Positions 2,795-8,351 of a stretch of DNA of 29,386 nucleotides are shown piece by piece. Source of the stretch: a virus; the IMG/VR virus record IMGVR_UViG_3300021389_000106, positions 1 through 29,386 of that record, one strand, 5' to 3'. The stretch's first letter is position 1. Every line of letters begins with the position of its first letter. Position numbers and translations under genes: made by a program. The notes below the pieces were generated by a model. That model was not told the DNA's origin and ran no database searches. It saw nothing but the letters and a program-made list of their open reading frames with translations.

Positions 2795-3499
2795 TTAATT
2801 AACAATAAAGATTAGACCTTCTTTTAAATGATTTTTGTATTTTTGAAATCCTATCTTTTTTTCTTTAATATATGAAGTGACACTTTCCCATATATTTTTT
2901 CCATCACTCACTTTTACATTCCTTGATGTAGTGAGTGTTTTTTTATGCTCTTTTGTAAGTTTTTTACCGTACATAGGATTTCCTTCACCAGAATACATTT
3001 TACTAAACTTCTCACGAACTTCTGGCTTATACATTGGATTGTATGATTTATCTTTCATTTTTTCACTTCTCATATCGCAGAACTTATCGTTTCTCATAAC
3101 TACTTCGTAAATTCCTGTTCTTTCACTCACAAAAAATCTTCCTTCAATATTTGTATTATAATAATTATCTGTCATTAGAACATCTCTTTTAAATTGTTCC
3201 ATAGTTTCATAGTAAGACATTGATTTTTTATGAGGACATAGGTAGAGTATTTCTCTCAAAAATTTATCTTCACCAAGAAGTTTTATATCTTCATTTAATG
3301 GATCACAAGAACCGAAATATTTTTTCCAATCACTCTCTTTTGTTTTTCTTCTACCAGTCTTTTTATCTTTTCTTCTTGTCCAAAAAGATTTTTTACCAAC
3401 ATATTTTCTATTATTCGTCAAATTTGTTATTAAATAAACAAATCCTTCTATACCTTTGGGTGCTTCAGTAAAGTCTTCTTCGTTATATCTCCAAGACAT
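2795..3499 (-). CDS. GIY-YIG homing endonuclease with NUMOD3-type DNA-binding repeats
   Basis: A free-standing mobile nuclease that would cut related phage genomes to copy itself. The GIY element is 'GFVYLITN' and the YIG element 'RKYVGKK'. Next comes 'FWTRR' with the usual catalytic-side arginines, and 'YYETMEQF' with the metal-binding glutamate. Behind it are two NUMOD3-like segments ('YNPMYKPEVREKF' and 'GEGNPMYGKKLTKEHKK') and a helical, basic C-terminus. An upstream in-frame ATG at 3517 would add six residues (MVESIF). A TATAAATA late promoter puts the transcript start at about base 3517, so that ATG would have no leader. The second ATG (MSWRYNEEDF) is preferred. Neither start has a good ribosome site. 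The gene is very AT-rich and opposite in direction to its neighbours, as expected of a recent mobile insertion. Confidence 0.9.
   Translation of the reverse strand: MSWRYNEEDFTEAPKGIEGFVYLITNLTNNRKYVGKKSFWTRRKDKKTGRRKTKESDWKKYFGSCDPLNEDIKLLGEDKFLREILYLCPHKKSMSYYETMEQFKRDVLMTDNYYNTNIEGRFFVSERTGIYEVVMRNDKFCDMRSEKMKDKSYNPMYKPEVREKFSKMYSGEGNPMYGKKLTKEHKKTLTTSRNVKVSDGKNIWESVTSYIKEKKIGFQKYKNHLKEGLIFIVN
2905..2944 (+). terminator. Intrinsic terminator for + strand transcription, inside the GIY-YIG gene
   Basis: CACTCAC (2905-2911) pairs perfectly with GTGAGTG (2931-2937). An inner ACAT/ATGT extension sits across a small bulge, and seven T follow at once (2938-2944). It is oriented to stop + strand transcription from nrdA-nrdB while lying in the 3' part of a - strand gene, where it encodes 'TLTTSRNVKVSDG'. 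Confidence 0.6.
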
Positions 3500-3522
3500 A
3501 AAAATACTTTCTACCATAAAAC

Positions 3523-3546: not shown

Positions 3547-3604
3547 GCGTTCATATATAACTGTAATGTTATGGAAATTTTGGAAAAGACTCTGCAGGTG
3601 ACCC

Positions 3605-4430: not shown

Positions 4431-4433
4431 TAT

Positions 4434-4471
4434 GCCCCGTTAGCTCAGGAGACAGAGCAACTGCCTTCTTA
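4434..4471 (+). pseudogene. 5' half of a tRNA-Arg(UCU), broken in the anticodon loop
   Basis: Reads as tRNA positions 1-38: acceptor strand GCCCCGT, TA, D-stem GCTC/GAGC with an 8-base loop, A26, anticodon-stem strand ACTGC, and loop CTTCTTA with UCU in place. The following GAACA cannot pair with ACTGC, and no T-arm follows. The matching 3' acceptor strand, ACGGGGC, appears about 770 bases downstream on the tRNA-Val-like gene (5210-5216). Confidence 0.65.
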
Positions 4472-4569
4472 GAACAACCGTTTGGGCTCATAGTTAAGAG
4501 GATATAACCTTCGCCTTCTAAGCGAATGTCCCTGGTTCGATTCCAGGTGAGCCTGTTGGTTGTTCTAAG
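4468..4569 (+). repeat. 12-bp inverted repeat enclosing tRNA-Arg
   Basis: CTTAGAACAACC (4468-4479) and GGTTGTTCTAAG (4558-4569) are exact reverse complements on either side of the tRNA-Arg(UCU) gene. In the transcript they would clamp the tRNA in a closed stem. Farther out, CCCGT (4436-4440) could pair with ACGGG (4576-4580). Confidence 0.75.
4484..4555 (+). tRNA. tRNA-Arg (UCU anticodon)
   Basis: Complete cloverleaf: acceptor GGGCTCA/TGAGCCT (one G-T pair), D-stem GTTA/TAAC, anticodon stem TTCGC/GCGAA with loop CTTCTAA, and T-arm CCTGG-TTCGATT-CCAGG. CCA is not encoded. It reads AGA, a codon frequent in AT-rich phage genes. It sits inside a 12-bp inverted repeat and follows the half-gene of another tRNA-Arg(UCU). 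Confidence 0.93.
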
Positions 4570-4594
4570 TAACATACGGGTAAGTTGTTACTCT

Positions 4595-4602
4595 TATAAA
4601 TA
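4595..4602 (+). promoter_or_regulatory. T4-type late promoter for the PD-(D/E)XK endonuclease
   Basis: Exact TATAAATA. The expected start is near 4608, which leaves a 16-base leader before the ATG at 4624. Confidence 0.75.
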
Positions 4603-4623
4603 ATAAGAGATAACATAACTTGT

Positions 4624-5106
4624 ATGAAAGAACACCATACTAAAAACAAAGGAGATCTTGGAGTTCTAAAAGCACAACTTGATCTATATGAGAAAGGATA
4701 TCTAATTCTTACTCCTCACACAGAACACTCTCCTTTTGACCTTGTTGCCTATAAAGATAGAAACTTTTTAAGAGTCCAAGTCAAGTATAGAGCATCAAGA
4801 AATGGTAAAATAGCAGTCCCTTTTATGACTTGCTGGACAGATAGAAATGGAACTCATACTCAAGATTATGATAAAAATGAAATTGATGTGATGTGTGTCT
4901 ACTGTCCAGACACAGATAAATGTTACTACATAGATCCAAATGATTGTAGTAAAACATTTGTCCTAAGATTAGTTCCATCCAAAAATAACCAAAAAACTGG
5001 TGTAAATTTGGCTGAAGATTATCTTAGTATTCCCGATAAGCGGTTATCCGTTGGTTCGAATCCAACATCTTCCGTTTCTCGGAGTATCATGGGGCGTGAT
5101 ACTTAA
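4624..5106 (+). CDS. PD-(D/E)XK homing-type endonuclease, C-terminus running into a tRNA 3' half
   Basis: Resembles the cyanobacterial I-Ssp6803I family (PDDEXK_5), small nucleases that target tRNA genes at the anticodon loop. Visible: 'KGDLGVLKAQLDLYEKGY' at residues 9-26, then 'SPFDLVAY' with the metal-binding Asp at residue 39, and 'LRVQVKY' with Gln52 and Lys54, the QxK version of the active site. The acidic residue usually found after 'GDxG' appears to be Val14, so activity is not assured. The family-like part ends near 'NLAEDYLSIP' (about residue 138). The last 23 residues contain 'SVGSNPTSS', which is simply a translated tRNA T-arm. The nuclease gene has thus lost its own end or been fused to a tRNA. 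It has its own late promoter inside the tRNA cluster. Confidence 0.8.
   Translation: MKEHHTKNKGDLGVLKAQLDLYEKGYLILTPHTEHSPFDLVAYKDRNFLRVQVKYRASRNGKIAVPFMTCWTDRNGTHTQDYDKNEIDVMCVYCPDTDKCYYIDPNDCSKTFVLRLVPSKNNQKTGVNLAEDYLSIPDKRLSVGSNPTSSVSRSIMGRDT
5035..5074 (+). pseudogene. 3' half of a tRNA, possibly tRNA-Ile(GAU)
   Basis: From an anticodon-loop-like GATAA through GCGGT, T-arm GTTGG-TTCGAAT-CCAAC and acceptor strand ATCTTCC. No D-arm or 5' anticodon strand precedes it. A GAAGAT upstream (5014-5019) pairs with six of the seven acceptor bases but leaves only 30 bases for the D and anticodon arms, too few for a tRNA. The segment is also read as the C-terminus of the endonuclease gene. The Ile identity is a guess from GAU. 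Confidence 0.55.
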
Positions 5107-5142
5107 TAGAGACCACCCCGAAAGTTGGTTATCGTCCGAGAA
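5076..5142 (+). ncRNA. Structured RNA segment with possible kissing loops
   Basis: TTCTCGGA (5076-5083) and TCCGAGAA (5135-5142) close an 8-bp stem. Inside are hairpin GTATCA-TGGGGCG-TGATAC (5084-5102) and hairpin GACCA-CCCCGAAAGT-TGGTT (5111-5130). The loops carry GGGG and CCCC, so they could kiss. It does not fold as a tRNA. It overlaps the last codons of the endonuclease frame. Phage T4 also has non-tRNA stable RNAs in its tRNA cluster, but no specific family is recognised here. Confidence 0.4.
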
Positions 5143-5145
5143 TCT

Positions 5146-5217
5146 GGCAGTGTAGTTCAGTGGTAGAGCAGCACCTTTACACGGTGAATGTCGGGGGTGC
5201 GAATCCTCCACGGGGCG
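5146..5217 (+). tRNA. tRNA-Val(UAC)-like gene with mismatched acceptor (chimera or pseudogene)
   Basis: D-arm GTTC-AGTGGTA-GAGC, anticodon arm CACC-TTTACAC-GGTG (UAC) and T-arm GGGGG-TGCGAAT-CCTCC are present, with one G-T pair and a changed T-loop (TGC for TTC). The acceptor strands GGCAGTG and ACGGGGC do not pair: only 2 of 7 match. ACGGGGC is instead perfectly complementary to GCCCCGT of the half-gene at 4434. The gene looks like a tRNA-Val 5' part joined to another tRNA's 3' part. A second, normal tRNA-Val(UAC) lies downstream, so loss of this one would be tolerated. Confidence 0.6.
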
Positions 5218-5364
5218 TTAGACAGGGAATGAGCTCGCCTGCGGCGGTGTTAACCACACTGTGATCTGAGAGATGGTTACTCTCTTTGCTCCTTTGGAAA
5301 CTGTTGGTATGTTAGGGTTGGAAAAATGCCCCATAGGAAGCATACCAATAAGTCCATCGTATAA
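5218..5364 (+). other. Non-coding spacer with several stems, possible small RNA
   Basis: No gene is seen. Stems present: CGCC-TGC-GGCG (5236-5246); TAACCA/TGGTTA (5251-5256 with 5274-5279), competing with GAGAG/CTCTC; and a long hairpin TTGGTATG/CATACCAA (5304-5311 with 5341-5348) enclosing GGG/CCC. The density of stems between tRNA genes suggests a stable RNA or processing signals. It matches no RNA class I recognise. Confidence 0.35.
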
Positions 5365-7883: not shown

Positions 7884-8093
7884 ATGTCCAAAACACCTTA
7901 TGAGCTTCGCTTTGAAATTTTCAAGCAAGCATACAACATGCTACAAGATAACTACTCTATGGAGTTTGAAGTAGCACAACGACAAAATCCAGATGGTTTG
8001 ATCTCGGCAAATTTTGCTGAAAAATATCCATCACTGGAAGATGTGCTTCAGCAAGCAGAAGTCATCAACAACTTTGTTTCCGAGACAAAGTAG
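7884..8093 (+). CDS. Small helical phage protein (69 residues)
   Basis: AGGAG lies 8 bases before the ATG. An open frame reaches back to 7746 but has no ribosome site and overlaps the previous gene. The product 'MSKTPYELRFEIFKQAYNML' continues mostly helical and acidic. Similar short proteins starting with 'KTPYELR' occur, from memory, in many T4-like cyanophages, with no assigned function. Confidence 0.8.
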   Translation: MSKTPYELRFEIFKQAYNMLQDNYSMEFEVAQRQNPDGLISANFAEKYPSLEDVLQQAEVINNFVSETK

Positions 8094-8278
8094 GTTTCCA
8101 ATTTCCTAAAAGAATTGGTGGTGCGGATGGGACTCTCTCCCGCCTGGTTTCTTGCTTCCAGTTAAAGAGCAAGTGGTGGATCCAAATGACCCCTTCCGTG
8201 TGGTTGATTTCCTGTTTCTCAACTGAATAAAAAACAGGTGGCGTGCATGTGTCCTGGGGATTGACCTCCCCTTTTCAT
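8094..8278 (+). other. Array of three tandem, covarying RNA hairpins
   Basis: Three units share the pattern TTTC-N5-TYC-A-rich loop-N5'-G-TGG(T/C)G. Stems are CAATT/AATTG (8099-8103 with 8113-8117), TTGCT/AGCAA (8152-8156 with 8168-8172) and CTGTT/AACAG (8212-8216 with 8233-8237). Each is closed by a constant C-G pair. The stem sequences differ while pairing is kept, and the flanks stay constant, which indicates selection on RNA structure. The C/G-rich tails after each unit also hold small stems (GGGA/TCCC, GGGG/CCCC). No coding frame is convincing. The array leads directly into tRNA-Gly. Confidence 0.55.
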
Positions 8279-8351
8279 GCGGGTGTAGCTCAGATGGTAG
8301 AGCGTCAGTTTTCCAAACTGAACGTCGTCGGTTCAAGTCCGATCTCCCGCT
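8279..8351 (+). tRNA. tRNA-Gly (UCC anticodon)
   Basis: Acceptor GCGGGTG/CTCCCGC (one T-T mismatch at the sixth pair), D-arm GCTC-AGATGGTA-GAGC, anticodon stem TCAGT/ACTGA with loop TTTCCAA, and T-arm GTCGG-TTCAAGT-CCGAT with one wobble. It stands apart from the main tRNA cluster, behind the hairpin array. A T5 run after it merges into the next late promoter. Confidence 0.9.

Follow-up and report, generated by a model that had tools for sequence, protein, structure and literature searches.

Homing endonucleases that settle in essential or otherwise useful genes are usually tolerated, since the intron or intein that houses them removes itself. A locus that appears to follow another course is found in a 29,386-nucleotide stretch of viral DNA, IMG/VR record IMGVR_UViG_3300021389_000106 (the window in what follows), a fragment of a T4-like cyanophage with ribonucleotide reductase, transaldolase and tail lysozyme genes and a wcaG RNA. 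Here a tRNA-Arg(UCU) gene is interrupted in its anticodon loop by a 568-nucleotide cassette, which encodes a nuclease of the PD-(D/E)XK type together with an intact tRNA-Arg(UCU). The locus is probably a tRNA gene invaded by a homing endonuclease cassette that is not an intron and that brings a replacement tRNA, a reading to which we give a probability of roughly 0.8, its mechanistic part being the conditional one.

Several described systems share a part of this arrangement. I-Ssp6803I, also of the PD-(D/E)XK type, is the homing endonuclease of a group I intron that lies in the Synechocystis tRNA-fMet gene (PDB 2ost; Bonocora & Shub 2001, cited in PMC1995217); it has the same protein family and fold as the cassette nuclease and, as summarised in the citing paper, is specific for the tRNA anticodon region. 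Its self-splicing intron restores the tRNA, whereas the cassette has no intron, has tRNA-Arg(UCU) as its presumed target and carries a spare tRNA-Arg. F-CphI, known from collaborative homing (Zeng et al.; Bonocora & Shub 2009, cited in PMC10448857), is likewise a free-standing homing endonuclease of a cyanophage with an intron insertion site as its target, although that target lies in psbA and, in the account given there, no replacement gene is carried.

In T4, segB is flanked by tRNA genes and promotes the inheritance of this tRNA region; its product is a free-standing homing endonuclease of a phage tRNA cluster, with the same logic of a late promoter and a hairpin that masks the start codon (PMC2988022, PMC13096335), features found with several T4 homing endonucleases (PMC2988022). 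Unlike the cassette nuclease SegB is a GIY-YIG enzyme, its described target is in the tRNA intergenic or tRNA region, it is not inserted in an anticodon loop and no paired replacement of a broken isotype has been described for it. Replacement itself is known from the mobile ORF (open reading frame) elements of fungal mitochondria, in Allomyces atp6 and in Glomus atp6, atp9, cox2 and nad3, where an endonuclease element enters a gene and supplies a foreign substitute, the native part being left as a displaced relic (PMC3630166). What these elements exchange is no more than the 3' end of a protein gene, which becomes a hybrid, whereas the cassette supplies a whole tRNA gene and the old gene is abandoned. 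HomeR, an engineered home-and-rescue gene drive (PMC7968924), also enters a gene at its cut site and carries a re-coded copy, but it is synthetic, CRISPR-based and from Drosophila, and for the phage tRNA copy resistance to cutting is presumed.

Two ends of one tRNA gene and its empty alleles

A first-pass annotation of the window had listed a tRNA-Arg 5' half, an intact tRNA-Arg(UCU), a nuclease, a further tRNA 3' half and a tRNA-Val-like gene, and re-annotation found every piece where it had been placed (Table 1). The same annotation had paired the acceptor strand GCCCCGT of the 5' half with the distant ACGGGGC, and had proposed looking for an uninterrupted gene with both. Two pattern scans found such a tRNA-Arg(UCU) gene, with exactly these ends, in at least 32 viral contigs (for example GCCCCGTTAGCTCAGGAGACAGAGCACGAACCTTCTAAGTTTGCGGTCGGGGGTGCGAATCCTCCACGGGGCG). 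The window shares with it the first 26 and the last 30 bases, the latter including two bases after the gene. The two strands pair at 7 of 7 positions, GCCCCGT pairs poorly with the local 3' half, and the agreement is more than chance because at least 32 contigs carry the uninterrupted gene with exactly these ends and the whole unit recurs in a second contig (L010). By their sequence, then, 4434-4459 and 5190-5219 are opposite ends of a single tRNA-Arg(UCU) gene. The D-loop AGGAGACA was considered as a sign of decay and rejected, as intact alleles carry it and it is native to this allele.

The 787-nucleotide stretch 4433-5219 has a 99.9% identical copy in L010, between unrelated flanks. A further contig, L342, matches the flanks of L010 at 99.1% over the 2500 nucleotides that precede the tRNA and at 98-99% beyond it, and has a single intact tRNA-Arg at the site where L010 holds the unit. 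Four contigs (L316, L324, L329 and L344) have an intact tRNA-Arg behind the lysozyme gene of the window (82-84%), and intact tRNA-Arg genes also lie within comparable tRNA clusters of S-SKS1, S-CAM4 and ACG-2014i. Occupied and empty alleles are thus seen side by side, since L342 and L010 share flanks and the four contigs share the lysozyme context of the window. An isolated second tRNA-Arg 3' end (GTCGGGGGTGCGAATCCTCCACGGGGCGTT) is found some 370 nucleotides downstream of the tRNA-Arg in both L010 (4939-4972) and L342 (around 3550-3579), with an HNH-like fragment just upstream.

The cassette, its nuclease and the surrounding mosaic

The full-length cassette is exactly 568 nucleotides long and occupies the same site in the window, L010, L011, L014 and L015; the copies in the window and L010 are identical and distinct copies are 92-99.5% identical. 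These insertions hit tRNA-Arg alleles with the acceptors GCCCCGT, GTCTCAG and GCCCCTG. A fourth acceptor, GCTTCAG, is that of L029, where the nuclease has been deleted and the cassette tRNA kept, so that a tRNA lies inside a tRNA. The isolate Sf-FR1, of which the complete genome is available, shares with the window only 4458-5035, which is the cassette with a 12-nucleotide stump, CAACTGCCTTCT, ahead of it; this flank is unlike the CGAACCTTCT of the intact allele and persists at the left end of the cassette in Sf-FR1. In Acinetobacter phage Herod GCCTTCTTAG is found upstream of the cassette, perhaps a relic of the same insertion, though it is too short to claim as one.

Within the cassette a 12-base-pair inverted repeat surrounds the intact tRNA-Arg(UCU), followed by a leader hairpin containing TATAAATA and by the nuclease. 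RNAalifold detected no covariation in the leader hairpin over the two phage clades. Searches of the insert with Rfam at permissive settings (E<=1) gave no group I or group II intron and a core-motif search of the 568 nucleotides gave no group I R/S motifs, so the P3-P8 core and the R/S motifs that mark an intron-encoded endonuclease were not found around this ORF. What the cassette does have is the combination expected of home-and-rescue, it breaks a gene and supplies the same gene, in a copy that by its sequence looks functional.

The nuclease ORF matches PF11645 (E=2.4e-38) and, in a profile search, I-Ssp6803I (2ost, E=1.7e-9). An AlphaFold model (predicted local distance difference test score 88) has 2ost as its top Foldseek match (E=1.3e-10, TMq 0.74). 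Aligned to 2ost, D39 and K54 are invariant and Q52 nearly so, and the ratio of nonsynonymous to synonymous substitution rates between homologues is 0.03-0.28. The gene is free-standing and intron-less, either beside or inside a tRNA-Arg, and insertion at the same site suggests that the enzyme may be specific for the tRNA anticodon region.

The sequence around the cassette is a mosaic. The intact allele has GAGCA-CGAACCTTCTAAGTTTGCG-GTCGGGGGTGCG, and in the window GAGCA-ACTGCCTTCT is followed by the cassette, other material and then GTCGGGGGTGCG. The inner 3' half is identical at 28 of 29 bases to the 3' end of the tRNA-Ser(GCU) of S-SKS1. The left junction lies within the shared 5' half of tRNA-Arg and the right junction at GTCGGGGGT, a 9-base match common to the tRNA-Val of the donor and the tRNA-Arg of the recipient. 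A donor with the intact tRNA-Val and spacer arrangement was searched for and not found. The donor-derived spacer at 5077-5143 (TCTCGGAGTATCATGGGGCGTGATACTTAATAGAGACC..GGTTATCGTCCGAGA) has a predicted three-way junction fold and matched no Rfam family, its core recurs in a different setting in seven other viral contigs (L381-L387), where the outer stems and P3 differ yet stay complementary.

It is possible to account for all of these pieces by one homing event with short right-hand homology, although stepwise recombination is also possible. In a co-infecting phage the nuclease would cut the tRNA-Arg(UCU) gene at its conserved anticodon arm, and repair of the break would copy the cassette into the cut, the insertion destroying cutting site and tRNA together. 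The tRNA-Arg(UCU) of the cassette, with its differently spelled anticodon arm, would then keep AGA and AGG decoding and the new copy would presumably remain uncut. In the event seen here the left end of the break may have recombined in the shared 5' half, with the right end matching only the 9-base GTCGGGGGT in the next gene of the donor, tRNA-Val. The outcome would be resident tRNA-Arg ends 0.77 kilobases apart, with donor debris (the tRNA-Ser end, the spacer and the tRNA-Val start) between them. Insertion of a mobile block in an anticodon loop followed by recombination with neighbours was the simplest explanation of the first-pass annotation, and the empty-site alleles, the constant 568-nucleotide insert and the tRNA-Ser/tRNA-Val mosaic lend it detailed support; that annotation had missed the carried replacement tRNA-Arg and the link of the nuclease lineage to tRNA-Arg(UCU).

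The nuclease lineage and rival explanations

Relatives of the nuclease from phages and bacteria, compared at 42-89% identity, nearly all adjoin an intact tRNA-Arg(UCU) or sit in a group I intron, among those tabulated; at least two loci (L074 and L088) have neither context. In cyanophages, Herod, Nostocales and Woesebacteria the tRNA-Arg(UCU) precedes the nuclease gene, and in Myxococcota and Neolewinella it follows it; one linked tRNA was labelled Pyl by ARAGORN, its loop being TCT. In Acidobacteriota, Bacteroidota, Ignavibacteria and Longimonas the nuclease is inside a group I intron, a call that rests on R/S motifs and a covarying P3 (paired and covarying in 10 of 11 intron copies), with RF00028 below its cut-off on the bacterial genomes holding intron copies, probably since the ORF splits the model. 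In all seven intron cases with exons checked the intron follows T34 in the anticodon loop of a tRNA-Arg(UCU), 1-2 bases from the phage insertion point. Around 30 Nostocales loci (L095-L126) encode, some 75 nucleotides downstream of a canonical intact tRNA-Arg(UCU), a related PD-(D/E)XK domain that frequently has additional residues at its C terminus, and are possibly no longer homing. More distant relatives in Streptomyces, Salmonella and Klebsiella phages (L037, L038, L039 and L040) lie directly beside tRNAs of other isotypes (Ser, Asn), and a tRNA-adjacent habit may be family-wide.

With at least 120 viral contigs carrying it uninterrupted, under a wide variety of acceptor stems, the anticodon arm TAGAGCAAYTGCCTTCTAAGCARTCGGTCG would be a good target. 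The targets that are interrupted depart from it at 2-7 of 30 bases, as against 8-18 for the intact tRNA-Arg linked to a nuclease (2-3 in Nostocales), and the cassette tRNA of the window differs from the target arm at 13 of 30. The complete genomes of Sf-FR1 and Herod and the 79-kilobase L011 contig yielded no tRNA-Arg(UCU) other than the cassette-type one; seven Myxococcota and Neolewinella genomes were searched, and six have the linked copy as their only evident match whilst G006 has a second. A rule that a T31-A39 pair protects linked tRNAs was tried and failed, the cassette tRNA of this clade keeping C31-G39 and the L029 target having T31-A39. Phage S-SCSM2R (L007 2494-2567) has a cassette-type tRNA-Arg(UCU) that follows a tail-lysozyme gene and a small ORF and has no nuclease with it, which suggests either loss of the nuclease after replacement or the source of the cassette tRNA.

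It is, on a fine balance, probable that this lineage acts as a natural home-and-rescue drive against tRNA-Arg(UCU), cutting the anticodon arm and travelling with or beside a recoded, cleavage-resistant copy (phages and Myxococcota) or with a self-splicing intron (Acidobacteriota and Bacteroidota). In its favour, linked arms are by rank tests more divergent than unlinked ones (p=0.0009 for phages and, on the 3' half of the arm, p=0.0001 for Myxococcota), though on small samples with rows that are not fully independent. Several points weigh against the mechanism proposed for the cassette. The Nostocales relatives adjoin a canonical, non-divergent tRNA-Arg(UCU), so the linkage is not always with a divergent copy. 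The cassette tRNA retains the central CCTTCTAAG of the target, and therefore resistance would depend on the outer bases. A distant origin alone could account for the divergence of the cassette tRNA, and cyanophages may have no need for a tRNA-Arg of their own.

A possible but doubtful alternative to the reading of the locus given at the outset is a SegB-like free-standing homing endonuclease that lives in a tRNA cluster, with neighbouring tRNAs as passengers and the adjacent tRNA-Arg having no rescue role. T4 segB offers a model for this, and many distant PD-(D/E)XK relatives do occur in tRNA clusters beside other isotypes. However, in phages, Myxococcota, Nostocales and Woesebacteria alike the tRNA gene next to this nuclease lineage is with few exceptions tRNA-Arg(UCU), and the interrupted target is of that isotype too, where a random passenger would vary.

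Given the bacterial relatives in group I introns of the same anticodon loop, 1-2 bases away (between T34 and C35) and with a covarying P3 and R/S motifs, the block might instead be a degenerate group I intron that has lost its ribozyme core. This is unlikely, as there is no trace of a core in the cassette and the tree suggests an intron-less ancestor. The phage copies that sit in a tRNA group together with that of Sf-FR1 (100/95) inside a larger phage clade (99/95), the rest of which adjoins an intact tRNA-Arg, although the deep branches of the tree are poorly defined.

The first-pass annotation had also raised the idea that the halves are joined as RNA, as in a split or permuted tRNA; with such joining, or splicing by an unknown intron, the interrupted tRNA-Arg would still be made. 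This is not supported, and is very improbable: no pair of pieces in the window makes a tRNA and no group I or II intron was found there. Joining the 5' half to the local 3' half gives a mispaired acceptor stem and no ARAGORN match, and the outer tail begins in the T-arm region, without the 3' strand of the anticodon stem. Pieces that form a complete tRNA are found only in L011, L014, L015 and L029, where the joined halves are called tRNA-Arg(UCU) by ARAGORN, and these are read as abandoned halves. The outer acceptor, anticodon and T stems of L014 and L029 are still able to pair, and the fold predicted for the L029 transcript is that of one tRNA within another, but surviving pairing is what would be expected of young insertions. 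L010 differs from the window unit at a single base, a change that costs it one more pair of the anticodon stem, the halves of L011 have two mispairs, and the spare tRNA-Arg makes joining unnecessary. That the arrangement is an assembly artefact has a negligible probability, for whilst the window is a metagenomic IMG/VR fragment and tRNA repeats can mislead assemblers, the same unit is present in the separate contigs L009 (99.95%) and L010 and the cassette in the complete Sf-FR1 genome and several more contigs.

Setting of the locus and its significance

The features of the locus are collected in Table 1. A second homing endonuclease gene, SegE-type GIY-YIG with NUMOD3, lies on the minus strand at 2795-3517, some 0.9 kilobases upstream of the tRNA cluster. 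The wcaG RNA motif (Rfam RF01761, 93.8 bits) is at 8090-8187, just upstream of a tRNA-Gly (8279-8351). Between tRNA genes the spacer at 5219-5364, around 140 nucleotides and structured-looking, is common to phage Sf-CH5 (L008 2577-2716) and partly to Syn1 (L003); it had no match in Rfam.

Table 1. Positions in the window of the interrupted tRNA-Arg(UCU) gene, the cassette and the donor-derived pieces
Feature	Position	Strand	Remarks
tRNA-Arg 5' half	4434-4469	+	GCCCCGTTAGCTCAGGAGACAGAGCAACTGCCTTCT; ends inside anticodon loop
Resident tRNA-Arg(UCU) 5' end, interrupted gene	4434-4459	+	Acceptor GCCCCGT and D-arm; identical to 5' end of uninterrupted genes in at least 32 viral contigs
Donor-derived flank CAACTGCCTTCT	4458-4469	+	5' part of a tRNA-Arg anticodon arm that moved with the cassette
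Inverted repeat, 12 base pairs, left arm	4468-4479	+	Flanks cassette tRNA; predicted 13-base-pair stem
Mobile cassette, 568 nucleotides	4470-5037	+	Splits anticodon loop as TTCT|AA; boundary ambiguous by one base (T)
Intact cassette tRNA-Arg(UCU), proposed replacement (rescue) tRNA	4483-4556	+	ARAGORN; Rfam tRNA 62 bits
Inverted repeat, 12 base pairs, right arm	4558-4569	+	Flanks cassette tRNA; predicted 13-base-pair stem
Leader hairpin pairing nuclease start codon	4573-4626	+	Predicted; fold z=-7.3
T4-type late-promoter-like TATAAATA	4595-4602	+	In loop of leader hairpin; identical in 11 aligned leaders
Putative PD-(D/E)XK homing endonuclease gene	4624-5106	+	Domain 4624-5031; frame continues into tRNA debris
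Donor-side tRNA 3' half	5038-5074	+	Anticodon part beginning AAGC, then tRNA-Ser-like T-arm and acceptor (5047-5075)
Structured spacer, donor-derived	5077-5143	+	Core found again elsewhere in viral contigs
Val-like gene	5146-5217	+	Own acceptor strands unpaired; terminates in ACGGGGC
Truncated tRNA-Val, 5' two thirds	5146-5198	+	Fused at GTCGGGGGT to tRNA-Arg 3' end; best match ACG-2014i tRNA-Val
Resident tRNA-Arg 3' end, interrupted gene	5190-5219	+	T-arm, acceptor ACGGGGC, G73; identical to uninterrupted allele, e.g. L342

Within the open-access literature searched no prior description of such a cassette with a replacement tRNA was found. The locus suggests that phages have another route to tolerance, that of bringing a differently spelled spare of the gene that is broken, which is the design of engineered home-and-rescue drives and has a partial natural precedent in fungal mitochondria. 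If the lineage is indeed such a drive, the spare tRNA and the self-splicing intron would be two different answers of one endonuclease family to a shared problem. The cassette also accounts for 'split tRNA' debris, which might else be taken for trans-spliced tRNAs, and it offers a mechanism by which the tRNA genes of cyanophage genomes could turn over and become mosaic.
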